Below the pieces are notes generated by a model that did not search any database, was not told where the DNA came from, and saw only the letters and a program-made list of their open reading frames with translations. Positions 7,039 through 17,334 of a DNA stretch of 64,000 nucleotides are shown in pieces. The DNA comes from Thermoanaerobaculia bacterium (GTDB lineage: Bacteria; Acidobacteriota; Thermoanaerobaculia; Multivoradales; J023), in assembly GCA_030431255.1 (NCBI GenBank), contig JAUIJL010000012.1, forward strand, positions 124,001 through 188,000. The letters run 5' to 3'. Made by a program: the position numbers and the translations under genes. The first letter of the stretch is position 1. Each line of letters opens with the position of its first letter.

Positions 7039-7067
7039 TTGACGGTGAACCCAGGGGCTTCTAGAGT
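7039..7067 (+). promoter_or_regulatory. Sigma-70 promoter of the leu operon
   Basis: TTGACG (7039-7044) and TAGAGT (7062-7067) are separated by exactly 17 bp. Predicted transcription start is about 7073-7075, only a few bases before the leader ATG at 7077, so the leader peptide may be translated from a leaderless or nearly leaderless mRNA. Confidence 0.65.
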
Positions 7068-7076
7068 CCTGCCATC

Positions 7077-7253
7077 ATGATTCGCCGAAACACCCCAGCT
7101 CGAAACTTTGCATCCATCGAGCACACCGCCGTCGCTCGGGCGCAAGCTTTGCCGAGCTCTTCGTTGGACGCTTTTGCGTGCGCCGGTTGGGCGGCCTTTT
7201 TGCTACTCGTCAGCCTCCTCCTTATTGAGCCCATCGTTCCGGGGGTGACCTGA
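7077..7253 (+). CDS. leuL: Leu-rich leader peptide of the leucine operon attenuator
   Basis: A 58-codon reading frame (ATG 7077, stop TGA 7251-7253) contains LLLVSLLLI at codons 42-50. Six Leu codons fall within eight positions (TTG CTA CTC, then CTC CTC CTT; 7200-7223), including the CTA codon. It lies between a sigma-70-like promoter and an intrinsic terminator upstream of leuA, the arrangement of leader peptides in which stalling at Leu codons controls terminator formation. There is no good Shine-Dalgarno, consistent with leaderless initiation. Alternatively it is a small membrane protein, since the same segment is hydrophobic, but position and RNA pairing favour the leader role. Confidence 0.7.
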   Translation: MIRRNTPARNFASIEHTAVARAQALPSSSLDAFACAGWAAFLLLVSLLLIEPIVPGVT

Positions 7254-7312
7254 CGCATTCGATTTTTCGACGCGAGCATCACGAAACCCCCGGGTAGGCC
7301 CCGGGGGTTTTT
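7239..7312 (+). terminator. Leucine attenuator: antiterminator and intrinsic terminator
   Basis: The terminator has an 11-bp perfect stem AAACCCCCGGG (7284-7294) / CCCGGGGGTTT (7300-7310), loop TAGGC, and five T. CCGGGGGT (7239-7246), inside the end of the leader peptide, is complementary to ACCCCCGG (7286-7293) of the 5' terminator arm and would form the antiterminator. GTCA plus CC-rich sequence in the Leu codon run (7209-7220) can pair with GGGGGTGAC (7241-7249) as the protector. This gives the mutually exclusive 1:2, 2:3, 3:4 structures of classical attenuation. Confidence 0.75.
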
Positions 7313-7618
7313 GCATATCTAAGACACCGAAAGAAGACACAGAAAGGCTTGTAAATCCTCACCCAAACGCCCTCCGGCGTGACCTGAAACCGCCACGGAG
7401 TGGACCGAGACCGTCGAAGCAGCAGGCACAGCCGCCTGCTTGGCGCCTTCGGCGGTTTGGGTCCAACCCGCGGCGTCGACCCACAGCACCCTTCGAGAGC
7501 ACGGCTCTCGTGGAGCGGCCGGCCCGCTCCTTGGGTGAGGTGCGTCTACGCGGCGGGAAGGCGCCCAAAAAAAGACCCCAATCCAAGAGTCCCTGCCGAC
7601 CCTAGAAAAGGAATCGTC
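7313..7618 (+). other. Structured 5' leader between attenuator and leuA
   Basis: About 300 bases without a convincing gene. It contains two adjacent perfect hairpins shortly before leuA: CGAGAGC-ACG-GCTCTCG (7494-7510) and GGAGCGG-CCGGC-CCGCTCC (7512-7530). Neither has a T-tract. They may stabilise the mRNA or add control; no known riboswitch class is recognised. Confidence 0.45.
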
Positions 7619-9316
7619 ATGACCGCCTTTACGGACCCGCCGACGGCATCGGCACATCCCCCGAAGCACGACCGCCAGAAGACCGACAACCGTGTCCGCA
7701 TCTTCGACACCACCCTTCGCGACGGGGAGCAGTCCCCGGGTGCCAGCCTCACACGGGACGAAAAATTGACACTCGCTAGGGAGATCGCGATGTTAGGCGC
7801 GGACATCATCGAAGCGGGATTCCCGGCCGCCAGCCCGGACGACGCGGCGGCGGTCGCGGAAATCGCGAGCCGAGTCGGCACGGTTGACGGGCCGGTCGTT
7901 TGCGGGTTGGCCAGGGCTCATCGCGGCGACATCCAGACCGCCTTCGAATCCGTTCGCCATGCGGATAAACCGCGGATTCACACCTTCTTGGCCACCTCGG
8001 ATCTACACCTGGAGCACAAGCTCGGCATGAGCCGAGCCCAGGTGGTGGATCGGGTCGGTGAGATGGTCGCCTACGCCGCAAGCCTGTGTGCCGACGTGGA
8101 GTTCAGCCCGGAAGACGCGGGTCGCTCAGATTCCGATTTTCTGATCGAGGTCCTCGAGGTGGCCATCCAAGCGGGCGCCACCACCCTCAATATCCCCGAC
8201 ACCGTGGGTTATATGTTGCCCCACGAATACGGCGCCCTTTTCACCAAGCTGATCGACCAAACCCCCGGCGGGCACGGGGTGATCTGGTCGGCCCATTGTC
8301 ACGACGACCTCGGCCTGGCCACCGCCAACACCCTCGCCGCCTTACACGCCGGCGCGCGCCAAGCGGAGGTGACGGTCAACGGCATCGGCGAGCGGGCGGG
8401 CAACACCAGCTTGGAAGAGATCGTGATGGCGCTCAAGACTCGACGCTCCGCCACCGGGCTGACCACCCGGGTGAACACCCCGAGAATCACCCGGGTCAGT
8501 GGTTTGGTGAGCCATCACACCGGCATGGTGGTGCCGCCGAATAAGGCGGTGGTGGGGAGAAACGCCTTCGCCCACGAAGCCGGCATCCACCAAGACGGCA
8601 TGCTGAAGAACCAACGCACCTACGAGATCATGACCCCGGAGAGCGTGGGTCGAAATCAAAGCCGCTTGGTGCTCGGAAAGCACTCGGGCCGACACGCCCT
8701 GAAGGTGCGCCTGGAAGAGCTCGGCTTCAACCTGCCGGGCAGCTCCCTCGACGACGCCTTCCGTCGTTTCAAGGACTTGGCCGATCGCAAGAAAACCGTC
8801 ACCGATTCGGACCTCGAAGCGATTGCCCAAAACCGCGGCGAGGCCGCCCCGGACGGCTTCGAGATGGTGGATCTCCAGGTTCAATGCTCCCGGCCCGGCA
8901 CTCCCACGGCCACCGTTCGGCTGCGCACGCCCAAGGGCGAGCAACGGGTCTCCCCGGCCGTGGGCACCGGCTCCGTGGACGCGGTCTTCCGCGCCATCCA
9001 AAGCATCGTCGACGTGCCCAATGTGCTGGTGGACTTCAGCATCCAGAATTTGTCCGAAGGCATCGACGCCATCGGTCAAGTCTCGGTTCGGGTCGCCTCC
9101 CACGCCGGAGCCCGTCGCAGCTACGGCGGTTACGGCACCGACGTCGACATCCTGGTCGCCAGCGCCAAAGCCTATTTGGCCGCGGTCAATCGCCTGATCG
9201 CCGACCAACGGCCGGACCTTACGGCCCAAGCCGGGCGACGCCGACCCGAGCCCCTCGCCGCCGGTTGGTCGGCGGACGAAACCTTCGACCCCGCCTATAC
9301 CGCGGGAATCCCTTGA
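7619..9316 (+). CDS. leuA: 2-isopropylmalate synthase
   Basis: LeuA condenses acetyl-CoA with 2-oxoisovalerate, the first committed step of leucine synthesis in the cytoplasm. This 565-aa protein has the DRE-TIM metallolyase barrel: [13 protein letters not shown] near residue 30, metal-binding SAHCHDDLG, and [15 protein letters not shown] linker ([13 protein letters not shown]) follows, then a C-terminal regulatory domain from about 410 to 540 that in this family binds leucine for feedback inhibition. The start is ATG 7619 with AAGGA about 7 bases upstream; the frame extends upstream to 7400 but that part lies in the structured leader. It is the first gene of leuACDB and is expected to be controlled by the upstream attenuator. 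Confidence 0.97.
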
Positions 9317-9333: not shown

Positions 9334-10752
9334 ATGGCTGAAACGCTGTTCGACAAAATATGGCGCCGCCACGAGGTGGTGGCGCCGGAGACGCCGGATT
9401 TGCCGGCGATTCTCCACATCGACCTGCACCTGATCCACGAGGTCACCTCACCCCAGGCCTTCGCCGAGCTCGATCGACGAGGCCTGAAGGTCCGACGCCC
9501 GGACCGCACCGTGGCGACCATGGACCATTCCACCCCCACGGACCCGAGCATCGACCGGGCCCGGCTCAAAATCATCGACGCCGACGCCGCGATCCAGCTC
9601 GACCAGCTGGCACGGTCGTGCGAGCAACACGGAGTGCCCATATTTCCATTGGGTCACGAAAGCCAAGGCATCGTGCACGTGATCGGCCCGGAGCTGGGGT
9701 TGACCCAACCGGGTTTCACCATCGTCTGCGGTGATAGCCACACCAGCACCCACGGAGCTTTCGGCGCCCTGGCCTTCGGCATCGGCACCAGCGAGGTGGG
9801 GCACGTCATGGCCACCCAATGCCTGTTGCAAAAGAAACCCCGGAGTCTCGAGATCCGAGTCCAAGGCGAGCTCGGGCCCGGGGTCACCGCCAAGGACCTG
9901 ATCCTCGGCATCATCGCCCAAATCGGCACCGACGGCGCCACCGGCCACGTGGTGGAGTACACCGGCCCGGCCATCCGCGGCTTGGACATGGAGGGCCGCA
10001 TGACGGTGTGCAATATGTCGATCGAAGCGGGCGCTCGGGCGGGCCTGATCGCGCCGGACGACACCACCTTCGAGTACCTGAAAGGACGGGCGTATTCACC
10101 GAGGGGTATCGCTTGGGAGCGGGCGGTGGAGCAATGGAGCACCCTGGCCGGCGATCCTGCAGCCTCCTTCGATCGGACCGTGGAGGTCGACGCCTCGGAG
10201 CTTCAGCCGATGATCACCTGGGGAACGAGCCCGGGCATGGCGATCCCGATCACCGGCCGAATTCCGACCCGAGCCGAGGTCACCGACGAGGCTCGCCCAG
10301 GATTAGAAAAGGCGACCTCTTATATGGGCTTCGAAGCCGGCCAGGCGCTGCTGGGAAAAGCAGTCGACGTCGTCTTTCTCGGCAGCTGCACCAACTCGAG
10401 GCTCTCGGATCTGCAAGCAGCCGCTCGGCTGCTGGAGGGCAAACAGGTGTCCGCGGGCACGCGCATGATGGTGGTGCCGGGCTCCCAACGGGTCAAAAAG
10501 GCGGCGGAGGCTGAGGGTTTGGATCAAATCTTCCGAGCCGCGGGTGCCGAATGGCGGGAAGCCGGCTGCTCCATGTGCTTGGCCATGAACGGCGACCGCC
10601 TCGCCCCGGGGCAATTGGCGGTTTCGACCTCCAATCGCAATTTCGAAGGACGCCAAGGGCCCGGCGGGCGCACCCTGCTCGCCAGTCCCCTGACCGCCGC
10701 CGCCAGCGCGGTGACCGGAAAGATCAGCGACCCGCGGGAGATGAGCCGATGA
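9334..10752 (+). CDS. leuC: 3-isopropylmalate dehydratase large subunit
   Basis: The 472-aa aconitase-family subunit works with LeuD to isomerise 2- to 3-isopropylmalate. Cluster and substrate motifs are present: [37 protein letters not shown] and the CSMCLAMN pair. The three Cys needed for the 4Fe-4S cluster are all present. The start is ATG 9334 ([10 protein letters not shown]), 17 bases after leuA, with GGAG upstream; the same frame runs back inside leuA but is a shadow there. Its stop overlaps the leuD start as ATGA. Confidence 0.97.
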
Positions 10753-12903: not shown

Positions 12904-13044
12904 CGACCGGTCGGTTGAATTACTTTCTGGTACTGGTGCCGGCCCGCCATAGGTGTGGGTCGAAGTCGCTGCTCAAGCAGCATCCGTCAAGCATTCCAGC
13001 TCATCGACCGAGCTGAAACGTTCGAATTTATGTTCGGACCGAAC
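12904..13044. promoter_or_regulatory. Two palindromic operators upstream of the large secreted-protein gene
   Basis: CGACCGGTCG (12904-12913, perfect) shares the CCGACC/GGTCGG core with the palindrome at 5267-5284. GTTCGG-A-CCGAAC (13032-13044, perfect) ends 12 bases before the start codon at 13057, where a bound repressor could block transcription or the ribosome site. Both resemble TetR-family operators. Confidence 0.5.
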
Positions 13045-13056
13045 GAGGAACCCCCT

Positions 13057-16000
13057 ATGCGACCGCTACTGCTTCAACGGCCTTCGTTGGGCATCGCGCT
13101 GCTGGCCTGCAGCCTTTGCCTGCTCGCGGGAATCCCCGCATCCGCCCAAACCACTTCCCTCAGCTTTACCAATTCCAGCTCCGACATCCTGAATGTTTTG
13201 GCCTCCGAAGGCTTGGTCGCCGGCGATCAAGTGGACGAGCTCGGTCAAGTGATCGGAGGTCTCGCGCTCGATACCTCGACCTCAGCCACTTACTCCAACG
13301 ACGGTGCCGACGCGCTTCGGGCCACCCTAGAGCTGGACGGCGGACGCGATCTCTACCGCTTCGAAGGCACGTCTGAATGTGCCGGTCTAGTGGTGGTTTC
13401 CTTCAAAAATCACTCCGACAATCCCCTGCAAGTCCGGGACGCCCGCATCGTAGCGGCCACCCCGAGCTCCCAGGGGATCTACCTCGGCCAGGCCGTCACC
13501 ACCGTGACCACGCCGACCACCGAGGAGCAGCTTCTGGTGCGTGGCGCCGGCTCCGTGCAGCTGGATGTCCGCTTTGCCCTCGGCTCCGACGGCCGGGGCC
13601 GCTTGGCCACCTTCACCCGGCGGATCGAAACCCAAGTGAGCTGCGACCAGGTCACCCGCCTGGACGTCCGCGCCGGTGAGACCGCGGCCACCGTCGGCCT
13701 GTCCGACGTGGTGCCCGCCAACGGCTCCGAGCAGCTGCCTGTCCGTCGCGACGCCCACTCCCTGCTCGACGCCGAGCTGTCCAACGGCGCGGACACCCTC
13801 AAATCCGCGGGTCCCCTCGCTGCGATGACCACCGGCTCCTTCGCCAACAGCTCTGTCAAGGCCAACGGCGACGGCACCACCTCCTTCTGCACCGACGAAA
13901 CCTTCGACGGCGTCACCCTGCCCAACATCTGGGGCTTCGACTTGATCGGCGACGCCCTGGTCGGCTCCGCCGGTCTCACCGGCACCGGCCGCCTGACCCT
14001 CACCGGCACCGGCACCAGCCTCTACCACGACGCCGACAACGGCGGATACGTCTACCGCAGCGTCGGCGGCGACTTCCGCGCCGAGGTCACCCTGGTGGAC
14101 GTGCCGATCAACCAAGGCGGCGACTTCCGCAAATCCGGTCTGATGGTGCGCGAGTCCCTGGATCCCAACGCCGCCCGCGTGATGGTGCAATTGGTGGTCG
14201 ATCACCCGGTCTACAACACCACCGCCCTGCAATTCGACTTCCGCAACAAAGCCGGTGACGCCCTCGAGCTGGCCTCGACCCCGGTCGACCTCGGCCTGCC
14301 CCTGCGCATTGCCGTGGATCGCCGTGGCGACGTCTTCACCGCTTATTACTCCACGGACAACGGCAATTCCTGGATCAAACCCCTCGGCGGTGTCGGCCAG
14401 GGCCAGATCGAGATCGAGATGGGCGCCGCGTCTTTGGTGGGCATGACCGCCACCTCCTACGACAACGCCCTTCCCTTGACCGTGGAATACGACGACTTCC
14501 GTCTGTGCACGCCCAACAATGATCCGGCGCCGAATCTGCCGCCGGCCATCAGCTGCTTGGCGCCGCCGAAGCTCGACCTCTACTACTTGGTGGATTCCTC
14601 CGGCTCCATGACCGCGGCCTTCCCGGGCGCCACCTCCAAGCTGGCGGCCGTCGCCGACGCTATCGCCTCGGCCAACACGCTCCTGGGAGCCAACTTCCCG
14701 GGCAGCCGGGCCGCGTTGGTGACCTATCGCGGCGCGGTCTTCAGCGACCCGGTGTACAACGTCACCCAAGGCGCCCAGGTGGTCACCAACCTGACCACCG
14801 ATCTCACCGCGTCGTCGAACGCCATCGCCGCGATCGACCCGACCCAGATCCATCCCGACGCCAACACTCCGGCGCCGATCGCCCTGGATTTGACCACCCA
14901 AGATTTGGTCAACACCAACGCTCCGGACTTCCTTCCGGTGGTGGTGTGGTTGACCGACGGCGCGCCGAATATCGACATCGACGGCCAAGGCCCGCTCGAA
15001 TATCGCTTCACCGAGATCCTGCCGCTCAGCATCCGGGATACCAACAACGACTTCCTGCCCTTCGGTCAGGTCGCTTGGCTCGGCAACTACAACGGTGGCA
15101 TCGGCACCTACGACGGCAAGGTCTTCGCCGACACCATGTTCCAAATCGAAAATCTCAAGGACACGGTGACCGACGCGCTGATCTACCCCGTGGCGATTCG
15201 CGGTGAGGACACCTTCTACGAAGACCTGATGGCCTACGCTGCGGCCTATACCGGCACCCAGCTCTTCACGGTCGACGATACCGACGGCTTGGCCGCCGCC
15301 ATCGCCGACATTCTGACCGTGCTCGACTGCGGCGCCACCATCGGCGACTACGTCTGGAACGACGTCAACGGAGACGGCGTGCAGGACGGCTCAGAGTCGG
15401 GCATTGCCGGCGTGACCGTCGAGCTGCGGAACGATCAAGGTACGGTGGTCGCCACGGACGTGACCGATGCCAACGGCGCCTACCTCTTCGAGAACGTGGT
15501 GCCGGGCACCTACACGGTGACCGTCGATGCGTCGAGCTTGCCCGCCGGCCTCACGGTTCCGACCTACGACCTCGACGGTCTCGGCACGCCGAACGAAGCC
15601 TCGGTCACCGTGGCCGAAGGTGACGAGCGTCTCGACGTCGACTTCGGCTATCAAGCGACCGCTTCGATCGGTGATCGGGTCTGGCTCGACACCAACGGCG
15701 ACGGCGTGCAAGACGGTGACGAGACCGGTATCGCCGGCGTGACCGTCGAGCTGCGGGACGATCAAGGCACCGTGATCGCCACCGCGACCACCGGCTCCGA
15801 CGGCGAGTACCTCTTCGCCGATCTGGTGCCGGGCACCTACACGGTGACCGTGGTCGACACCACATTGCCCGCCGAGGTCGCCGGCCCCACCTACGACTTC
15901 GACGGCACGGCCACCCCGCACACCGCGTCGGTGACCGTCGCTTCCGGAGAAAGCCAGCTCGAGGTCGACTTCGGCTACGAGCCCGACGACACCGGCGGCG

Positions 16001-17334
16001 GCGGTGGTGACACCTGCGTCGAAGGCACGTACCGGGACGACTTCAACGTCGCCTCGTTCAGCAACCAAGACGGCAGCCTCGATTGGGCCGGCGATTGGGT
16101 CGAGAACGATCCGTTGGCCGCCGGCGTCGGCGACGGTCAGGTTCAGGTCCACGACGGCTTCCTGACCCTGGACGACGCGCCCGACACCGGTGCTCAGCCC
16201 AGCGCCGAGCGTTCTGCCGACCTTTCCCACGCGGACGGCGCCACCCTGAGCTTCGCCTTCGCCACCAGCTACGGCGTCGACTACAGCGACGCGGTCACGG
16301 TGGAGATCTCCAGCGACGGCGGCGCCACCTGGACCACCCTCGAGGTGATGGACGGCATCGAAGGATCCGTCACCGGTGAGCGTTCCTACGACATCAGCGC
16401 CTTCATCTCCGAGGACACTCGGGTTCGCTTCCGCGTGTCGAACAAATACGGCGGCTCCGACGAGCTGTTCTGCATCGATTGGATCGAAATCGTCACCACC
16501 TGCGACGTCGCCTGTGATGGTGCTGTCCAGGCCCGGGACAACTTCGACAACGACAGCTTCAGCAACCAGGACGGCGCCACCGATTGGGCCGGAGATTGGG
16601 TCGAATTCGATCCCACCGTCGCCGGCGTCGCCGGTGGCCAGGTCCAAGTCCACGACGGCTTCCTGACCCTCAACGACGCCCCGGACACCGGTTACAGCCC
16701 CAGCGCCGAGCGCTCGATCGACCTTTCCGGCAAATCCAACGTCACCATGAGCTTCGCCTTCGCCACCAGCGGTGGCGTCGATTACAACGACAAGGTCAAA
16801 GTGGAGATCTCCAGCGATGGTGGAGCCACCTGGACAGTGCTCGAAGTAATCTACGGCATCGAAGGCGCGGTCCAAGGCGAGCGGACCTACGACATCAGCG
16901 AGTTTGCCTCCGCCGATACCCGCATCCGATTCCGAGTAGCGAGGAATTACGGCGGCCACAACGAGCTGTTCTGCATCGATTGGGTCGAGATCGTCGCCGA
17001 CTGTGACGACGACGGCAACGGTGGTGGCGGCAGCCACCCCGGTGACCACTACGAGGGTGAGCTGACCTGCGACGACGACAGCAACTTCCAACCGGACGGC
17101 TCCTACTATTGGAGCGAGTCCGGTGTGCACGAGGGCTGGCTCGAAGGTGAAGGTCGAGATTTCGACCTCTACCTCTATCGCTGGAACGGCTACCGCTGGA
17201 GCAAAGTGGCTCAATCCATCAGCGAAACCTCCTCCGAGCACATCCGCTACGAAGGTTATTCCGGTTACTACACCTGGGAAGTCCGCTCCTATCTCGGCCA
17301 CGGGGCCTACGATCTGTGGATCTCCCATCCCTAA
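13057..17334 (+). CDS. Large secreted modular protein with vWA, SdrD-type and duplicated jelly-roll modules
   Basis: This 1425-aa protein is predicted extracellular. The order is: signal peptide (cleaved after IPASA near residue 28); an N-terminal beta domain to about 270; a concanavalin/DUF1349-like beta-sandwich at about 277-484; a vWA domain from about 504 with MIDAS DSSGS; two SdrD-B/CnaB-like repeats at about 760-973 (IGDYVWNDVNGDGVQDG, IGDRVWLDTNGDGVQDG); two near-identical 155-residue jelly-roll modules at about 991-1148 and 1158-1317; and a C-terminal PPC-like beta domain. The DxNGDGxxDG loops suggest Ca2+ binding. The start is ATG 13057 with GAGG upstream; an ATG at 13030 is possible but would extend the signal peptide. 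It is probably an adhesin or surface-layer protein. No sortase signal is visible. Confidence 0.88.
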   Translation: MRPLLLQRPSLGIALLACSLCLLAGIPASAQTTSLSFTNSSSDILNVLASEGLVAGDQVDELGQVIGGLALDTSTSATYSNDGADALRATLELDGGRDLYRFEGTSECAGLVVVSFKNHSDNPLQVRDARIVAATPSSQGIYLGQAVTTVTTPTTEEQLLVRGAGSVQLDVRFALGSDGRGRLATFTRRIETQVSCDQVTRLDVRAGETAATVGLSDVVPANGSEQLPVRRDAHSLLDAELSNGADTLKSAGPLAAMTTGSFANSSVKANGDGTTSFCTDETFDGVTLPNIWGFDLIGDALVGSAGLTGTGRLTLTGTGTSLYHDADNGGYVYRSVGGDFRAEVTLVDVPINQGGDFRKSGLMVRESLDPNAARVMVQLVVDHPVYNTTALQFDFRNKAGDALELASTPVDLGLPLRIAVDRRGDVFTAYYSTDNGNSWIKPLGGVGQGQIEIEMGAASLVGMTATSYDNALPLTVEYDDFRLCTPNNDPAPNLPPAISCLAPPKLDLYYLVDSSGSMTAAFPGATSKLAAVADAIASANTLLGANFPGSRAALVTYRGAVFSDPVYNVTQGAQVVTNLTTDLTASSNAIAAIDPTQIHPDANTPAPIALDLTTQDLVNTNAPDFLPVVVWLTDGAPNIDIDGQGPLEYRFTEILPLSIRDTNNDFLPFGQVAWLGNYNGGIGTYDGKVFADTMFQIENLKDTVTDALIYPVAIRGEDTFYEDLMAYAAAYTGTQLFTVDDTDGLAAAIADILTVLDCGATIGDYVWNDVNGDGVQDGSESGIAGVTVELRNDQGTVVATDVTDANGAYLFENVVPGTYTVTVDASSLPAGLTVPTYDLDGLGTPNEASVTVAEGDERLDVDFGYQATASIGDRVWLDTNGDGVQDGDETGIAGVTVELRDDQGTVIATATTGSDGEYLFADLVPGTYTVTVVDTTLPAEVAGPTYDFDGTATPHTASVTVASGESQLEVDFGYEPDDTGGGGGDTCVEGTYRDDFNVASFSNQDGSLDWAGDWVENDPLAAGVGDGQVQVHDGFLTLDDAPDTGAQPSAERSADLSHADGATLSFAFATSYGVDYSDAVTVEISSDGGATWTTLEVMDGIEGSVTGERSYDISAFISEDTRVRFRVSNKYGGSDELFCIDWIEIVTTCDVACDGAVQARDNFDNDSFSNQDGATDWAGDWVEFDPTVAGVAGGQVQVHDGFLTLNDAPDTGYSPSAERSIDLSGKSNVTMSFAFATSGGVDYNDKVKVEISSDGGATWTVLEVIYGIEGAVQGERTYDISEFASADTRIRFRVARNYGGHNELFCIDWVEIVADCDDDGNGGGGSHPGDHYEGELTCDDDSNFQPDGSYYWSESGVHEGWLEGEGRDFDLYLYRWNGYRWSKVAQSISETSSEHIRYEGYSGYYTWEVRSYLGHGAYDLWISHP
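15334..17007 (+). repeat. Internal duplications: SdrD-type pair and jelly-roll pair
   Basis: The first pair (15334 and 15661 onward, 327-bp period) encodes the SdrD-B-like modules. The second (about 16030-16500 and 16531-17007, about 500-bp period) encodes the jelly-roll modules. Long nucleotide stretches are conserved within each pair, for example around TCCACGACGGCTTCCTGACC, implying recent duplication or gene conversion. Confidence 0.85.

Follow-up and report, generated by a model that had tools for sequence, protein, structure and literature searches.

In a 64,000-nucleotide stretch of DNA from a Thermoanaerobaculia bacterium, hereafter the window, the leuA gene stands at the head of a leu operon and is preceded by the elements collected in Table 1. 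The initial annotation had placed a sigma-70-like promoter, a 58-codon leader peptide, an antiterminator strand and an 11-bp terminator in this order upstream of leuA, and all of these were recovered at positions that were exact or off by one or two bases, except that the terminator, although present, folds as 12 bp. Its guess that the host belongs to the Acidobacteriota was likewise right, the class being Thermoanaerobaculia. The leader ATG is located 9 nt downstream of the -10 box, and a Shine-Dalgarno sequence looked for upstream of this ATG was not found. Six leucine codons in eight positions had been claimed for the leader and are indeed read at 7200-7223 (L L L V S L L L), followed by an Ile ATT codon. 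Furthermore, the stretch TCCGGGGGT pairs end to end with ACCCCCGGG by eight Watson-Crick pairs and one G-U pair, and as the latter stretch doubles as part of the 5' arm of the terminator, the two pairings share one strand; TCCGGGGGT itself is found 13-5 nt upstream of the leader stop codon (7251-7253). Downstream of the leu operon, positions 12955-17334 of the window encode a 1459-aa protein, which as judged by its translation appears to be secreted and to contain a von Willebrand A-like part as well as SdrD-B-like parts that are repeated.

Table 1. Features of the leu locus, in window coordinates.
Feature	Position	Strand	Basis
Sigma-70-like promoter: TTGACG (7039-7044), 17 nt spacer, TAGAGT (7062-7067)	7039-7067	+	sequence
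Predicted transcription start, A7074 to A7077; 5' UTR of 0-3 nt	7074-7077	+	promoter spacing, no Shine-Dalgarno
Leader peptide ORF, 58 codons, C-terminal end FLLLVSLLLIEPIVPGVT*	7077-7253	+	translation; end conserved in relatives
Putative control codons TTG CTA CTC GTC AGC CTC CTC CTT ATT (six Leu, one Val, one Ser, one Ile)	7200-7226	+	
Possible segment 1 (protector strand), partner 7241-7255; structure not conserved	7208-7221	+	folding
Segment 2, antiterminator strand TCCGGGGGT, within codons for V-P-G-V of the leader	7238-7246	+	9 bp with 7286-7294
Intrinsic terminator, 12 bp stem 7283-7294/7300-7311, loop 7295-7299, U tract to 7312	7283-7311	+	folding, covariation
Segment 3, ACCCCCGGG (within terminator stem)	7286-7294	+	
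Segment 4 (within terminator stem)	7300-7308	+	
leuA, 2-isopropylmalate synthase, first controlled gene	7619-9316	+	NCBIfam TIGR00973 leuA_bact, 678 bits
leuC, 3-isopropylmalate dehydratase large subunit	9352-10752	+	TIGR00170
leuD and leuB ORFs	after leuC, to about 12514	+	inferred from translations

In general scans of the region, neither the promoter nor the terminator pattern by itself rises far above background, and it is therefore the combination of elements, together with its conservation, that carries the claim. A scan for the whole layout, defined as a terminator with a stop codon 9-75 nt upstream, an LIV run within the last 26 codons and complementarity of the stop region to the terminator arm, gave one match in the window (both strands), whereas 768 kb of dinucleotide-shuffled strands gave no match at all.

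Conservation was followed with a covariance model (R1) made from six seeds taken from the leaders of relatives, with which 149 genomes of the class were searched, the matches then being read. Two genomes (G007 and G015), in which the antiterminator is found 17-21 nt upstream of the leader stop, were left out of this model, as they had been misplaced in the MAFFT alignment of the first eight seeds, and a second model (R2) was not used because it would mostly match plain C-rich terminators. Other families of the order also have the layout upstream of leuA, with a differing sequence, for instance SLVLLLVLIRDISPGAT* in G020, TLLLGLVLIQLIEPGST* in G005 and LGSLVLMVICNPGAT* in G006. In G001, which belongs to the same genus as the present genome, a leader is missing from leuA itself, and the attenuator is found one gene earlier, in front of ilvE (LLGLLLLIGNIPGAS*). 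Across many families of the class the layout occurs upstream of leuA, ilvE, ilvD and ilvB. A strong leuA match was obtained in 18 genera of the class, and every one of them has the layout at the head of a leu/ilv operon in at least one genome; among these are one genus (that of G136) in which it was read by eye and four with an imperfect 2:3 pairing. Four relatives, L154, L155, L157 and L158, have a 2:3 pairing that is weak or broken by a mismatch. That the count of genera is modest is due to most genera of the class being without a strong leuA match, and these are presumably auxotrophs. The leaders of relatives keep the C-terminal LIV run and the PG-x-T/S end, and in most attenuators the leader is 34-70 codons long. 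Conservation of the Leu codons and of the 2:3 pairing in relatives had been put forward as a check of the claim, and with all 18 genera and the covarying pairs described below the claim survived it. Among 40 ilvD upstream regions from Acidobacteriota outside the class, clear layouts were found in only five (L200, L201, L209, L218 and L239) and were absent from most, so not all members of the phylum have the attenuator at this gene.

Some further arrangements were met in the course of these searches. The present genome has tandem BCAA attenuators before ilvD-ilvE-ilvB (L142:5431-5539 and L142:4854-4962, minus strand, contig C38), the second of which has no clear promoter, so that the two may act in series. 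Such a pair is also found in G001 (L143) and probably in G005, where L247 is located at one contig end and L144 at another. In the closed genome G047 (OX638294.1) the leader before ilvE (L032, about position 261) has a poor BCAA run (ARLLLPIPVPVLAG), whereas close relatives keep LLLLVLVLVLV, and control in G047 is possibly decaying. In Polyangiaceae (Myxococcota), a Val/Leu-rich leader and a terminator before ilvB (L045, about 2508; L047, about 2402) suggest similar attenuation there.

The composition of the leaders follows the genes behind them. Val, Ile and Leu abound in the leaders of ilvD and ilvB, and across the wider family the putative control codons are Leu, Ile or Val according to the gene that would be controlled. 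In G005 a leader MLTGTLMTPMMITTTPTSTGAI* with antiterminator and terminator (L145:1600-1730) is found before thrA, encoding aspartokinase-homoserine dehydrogenase, which is followed by asd and thrB as assigned by inspection; a Thr leader was not found before thrA of the present genome (L287), and the Thr case is that of G005 only. In eight genomes of one family (f14; L300-L307) a WWWY, WWWC or YWWY leader precedes a trpB-like gene, and these leaders have a segment 2 (CGGAGGGC) and a terminator arm (GCCCTCCG) of their own, and in most cases GGRVA-type ends. Codons matched to the pathway in this manner (BCAA, Thr, Trp) are hard to explain except as control codons. It should also be mentioned that the thrA matches (L290-L299 and others) contain one in-frame TGA in many genomes of genus g7 and in G001-G003, and that this TGA within the aspartokinase-homoserine dehydrogenase match is perhaps a gene boundary.

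The two competing helices also change in concert. When segments were swapped among 41 attenuators, the pairing of segment 2 was better with the terminator arm of its own locus than with foreign arms in 37 cases, with a mean score of 20.9 for the own arm and 17.2 for other arms. In one alignment (A3) three pairs of the 2:3 helix are changed on both sides, and its covariation score of 0.150, compared to 0.110 in shuffled alignments, was reached by 1 of 500 shuffles and was lower on every slide. The 3:4 helix of relatives is 100% paired in all cells and has four covarying pairs. At the last base of segment 2 the change is three-way, GGGGGC-GCCCCC-GGGGGC being exchanged for GGGGGU-ACCCCC-GGGGGU, and the same geometry is kept by unrelated cores such as GGGCCGT-ACGGCCC in G003, GCGGGGTG in G140 and GGATGATG-CATCATCC in L209 and L218. 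Furthermore, CUU makes up 31% of the Leu codons in leaders and 5% of those in downstream genes, and AUU correspondingly 46% and 11% of the Ile codons, figures that, like the covariation statistics, are inflated by the relatedness of the sequences. By analogy this enrichment would fit the use of rare codons for control known from Salmonella leu, where such codons raise sensitivity (PMC1183508); an alternative reason for CUU would be its weaker pairing with the G-run, i.e. avoidance of 1:2 pairing.

These observations also bear on the notion that the ORF arose by chance or is translated into a small hydrophobic (membrane) protein, with the hairpin serving as an ordinary constitutive terminator of an upstream transcript. 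The LIV-rich stretch does resemble a transmembrane segment and terminator-like matches are, as noted, near background in the region, but such an explanation is made highly improbable by the covariation of the coding strand with the terminator arm, by the replacement of the LIV run with WWW or Thr/Met/Ile before trpB and thrA in the same class, by the rare-codon bias of the leaders, and by the position of the ORF, which is always directly upstream of cognate operons and mostly has its own promoter.

The promoter lies 8-12 nt upstream of the leader ATG in 23 of the 45 leaders scanned and 17 nt upstream of it in three more, and in the remaining ones, which are mainly those of genus g7 and of distant cases, the 5' UTR is longer or unclear. 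Such spacing supports leaderless, or nearly leaderless, translation of the leader, and the initial annotation, to which the arrangement appeared leaderless, agrees with what is predicted from the spacing both here and in those 23 leaders. Leaderless genes have been estimated at 9.7-19.4% in three Acidobacteria (PMC3160421).

Folding of the nascent RNA as a function of ribosome position had also been proposed as a check, and was carried out. With the A site of the ribosome at any of the Leu codons or up to Ile 7224, all nine 2:3 pairs form, and this state is at -26.4 to -27.0 kcal/mol when the RNA is folded to the end of segment 3; with the ribosome at codon 7230 four of the pairs are left, and from codon 7233 onward there are none. 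A stall at the Leu codons would hence leave the 2:3 helix formed, and later positions would abolish it. Once segment 4 has been synthesized, the 3:4 state is at -34.7 and the 2:3 state at -31.2 kcal/mol, and the two are thus close, as needed for a kinetic switch. The distance from leader stop to terminator is 24-47 nt in 41 of 41 attenuators, and a ribosome at the stop would therefore cover segment 2 but not the terminator.

The locus had been described as a complete classical attenuator, and whereas leader, antiterminator and terminator bear this out, it goes too far for the protector, since the 1:2 hairpin can form but no selection for it is seen. In a classical four-segment attenuator this hairpin (7208-7221 with 7241-7255) would sequester segment 2 when translation is complete or absent, and it does appear in the minimum-energy folds computed for 7075-7320 and for 7200-7258 (-16.7 kcal/mol). 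Its energy is however that of synonymous recodings (z -0.10), 29 leaders have a mean z of +0.41 and hence slightly less structure than expected from such recoding, and a terminating ribosome would cover segment 2, at 13-5 nt before the stop, without any 1:2 hairpin. We accordingly find the four-segment arrangement doubtful, and a conserved protector hairpin is not supported by the synonymous recoding. As the stability of 1:2 is no greater than recoding gives, the best model is one of two competing hairpins in which the ribosome itself is the blocker, and because the antiterminator strand sits in the last codons of the leader, it is probably masked directly by the terminating ribosome.

In this two-hairpin model RNA polymerase would start at about 7074-7077, and the leader would be translated by a ribosome from a 5' end that is probably leaderless. 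A shortage of charged leucyl-tRNA would stall this ribosome at 7200-7226, so that segment 2 stays accessible and can pair with segment 3 while segment 4 has yet to be synthesized, and this pairing would block the terminator and allow leuA to be transcribed. When leucine is plentiful, the ribosome would reach the last codons or the stop and mask segment 2, such that 3:4 would pair and transcription end at about 7312. The elements, their conservation, covariation and codon bias, and the position-dependent folding are what the sequences show, and we infer the leucine dependence, the coupling of transcription and translation, the 5' end and the blocking by the ribosome rather than by a conserved 1:2 hairpin. 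The attenuation reading of leader, antiterminator and terminator is thus supported by comparative evidence in relatives, and the locus is very probably a ribosome-mediated (leader-peptide) transcription attenuator of the leuABCD operon.

It could be argued that the leader works mainly on translation, by ribosome delivery or reinitiation at leuA, or by way of Rho, instead of through an intrinsic terminator, since actinobacterial leuA leaders are without classical terminators (PMC1262725) and since short distances between leader and gene have been proposed to aid reinitiation (PMC4833913). The strong intrinsic terminator is however present with its U tract and covaries, and the about 365 nt from leader stop to leuA are too far for simple reinitiation, and we therefore give this explanation very little credence. 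Control of the terminator by a metabolite riboswitch, a T-box or an RNA-binding protein site is more improbable still. Nothing specific speaks for it, as the well-folding stretch 7357-7541 is downstream of the terminator, and conservation is seen in codons and in simple complementarity but not in an aptamer; an Rfam search likewise gave no match at gathering score and, at relaxed thresholds, chance-level weak matches only, and no T-box or riboswitch fold was matched. The stretch 7357-7541 between terminator and leuA is a separate matter. Its folding is strong (z -4.0 for 7340-7620), it is closed by a perfect 10-bp stem (7357-7366/7531-7540), and it is found once in its own genome and was not found in the other genomes of the family; a repeated mobile element was considered and rejected, no second copy above chance being present in genome or family.

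Most known cases of ribosome-mediated attenuation are from Proteobacteria, Actinobacteria and some Firmicutes. The initial annotation held leucine attenuation in the Acidobacteriota to be undescribed, and in the literature searched nothing was found that joins Acidobacteria or Acidobacteriota with leader-peptide attenuation of leuA, although an earlier prediction in a broad survey is possible. Lopatovskaya et al. reportedly presented a broad survey of attenuation in 2010. Acidobacterial attenuators have been predicted without functions by Naville and Gautheret (PMC2965389). Systems of this kind are known, and what is new, to the extent that this could be checked, is the phylum and the breadth. 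We put at about even the chances that Acidobacteriota, class-wide in the Thermoanaerobaculia and patchily across the phylum, keep BCAA, Thr and Trp genes under leaderless attenuators that have no protector hairpin, that carry the antiterminator in the last leader codons (often Pro-Gly-x-Thr) and in which the terminating ribosome is the switch. Attenuation thus appears as a standing control of Leu, Val and Ile synthesis, with Trp and Thr members, in a class of a largely uncultured phylum, and the leaderless, coding-embedded layout offers a clean test of the minimum of RNA segments with which an attenuator can do.

The leu attenuator of enterobacteria has a leader peptide of about 28 aa, a ribosome-binding site and a protector hairpin. 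This system (leuL; Rfam Leu_leader) shares with the present one consecutive Leu codons including rare ones, an antiterminator and an intrinsic terminator, all before leuA, but the leader described here has 58 aa, is apparently leaderless, has no conserved protector and no Rfam match. In Corynebacterium glutamicum, ilvBNC is preceded by a leaderless leader ORF with control codons CUU/GUA and by an antiterminator competing with an intrinsic terminator, and the antiterminator strand (nt 36-38) appears to be inside the leader coding region (PMC11857589); a leaderless leader is likewise found at ilvB of C. diphtheriae (PMC5784534). The coding-embedded antiterminator strand and, as predicted from spacing, probably the leaderless leader would thus be features in common with C. 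glutamicum ilvBNC, which however belongs to a different phylum, has about 15 codons as opposed to mostly 34-70 here, and has a proposed anti-antiterminator hairpin H1 of which no conserved counterpart is seen in the Thermoanaerobaculia attenuators. The actinobacterial LEU element upstream of leuA works otherwise, since it is a pseudoknot with its base stem over the leuA Shine-Dalgarno box and no classical terminator (PMC1262725), whereas the present attenuator has an intrinsic one. Leader-peptide attenuators of Firmicutes, namely those of S. aureus ilv and Listeria ilv (PMC5794164, PMC5864092) and that of Bacillus hisS (PMC2965389), are further instances of attenuation outside Proteobacteria and Actinobacteria, and they too are from a different phylum.
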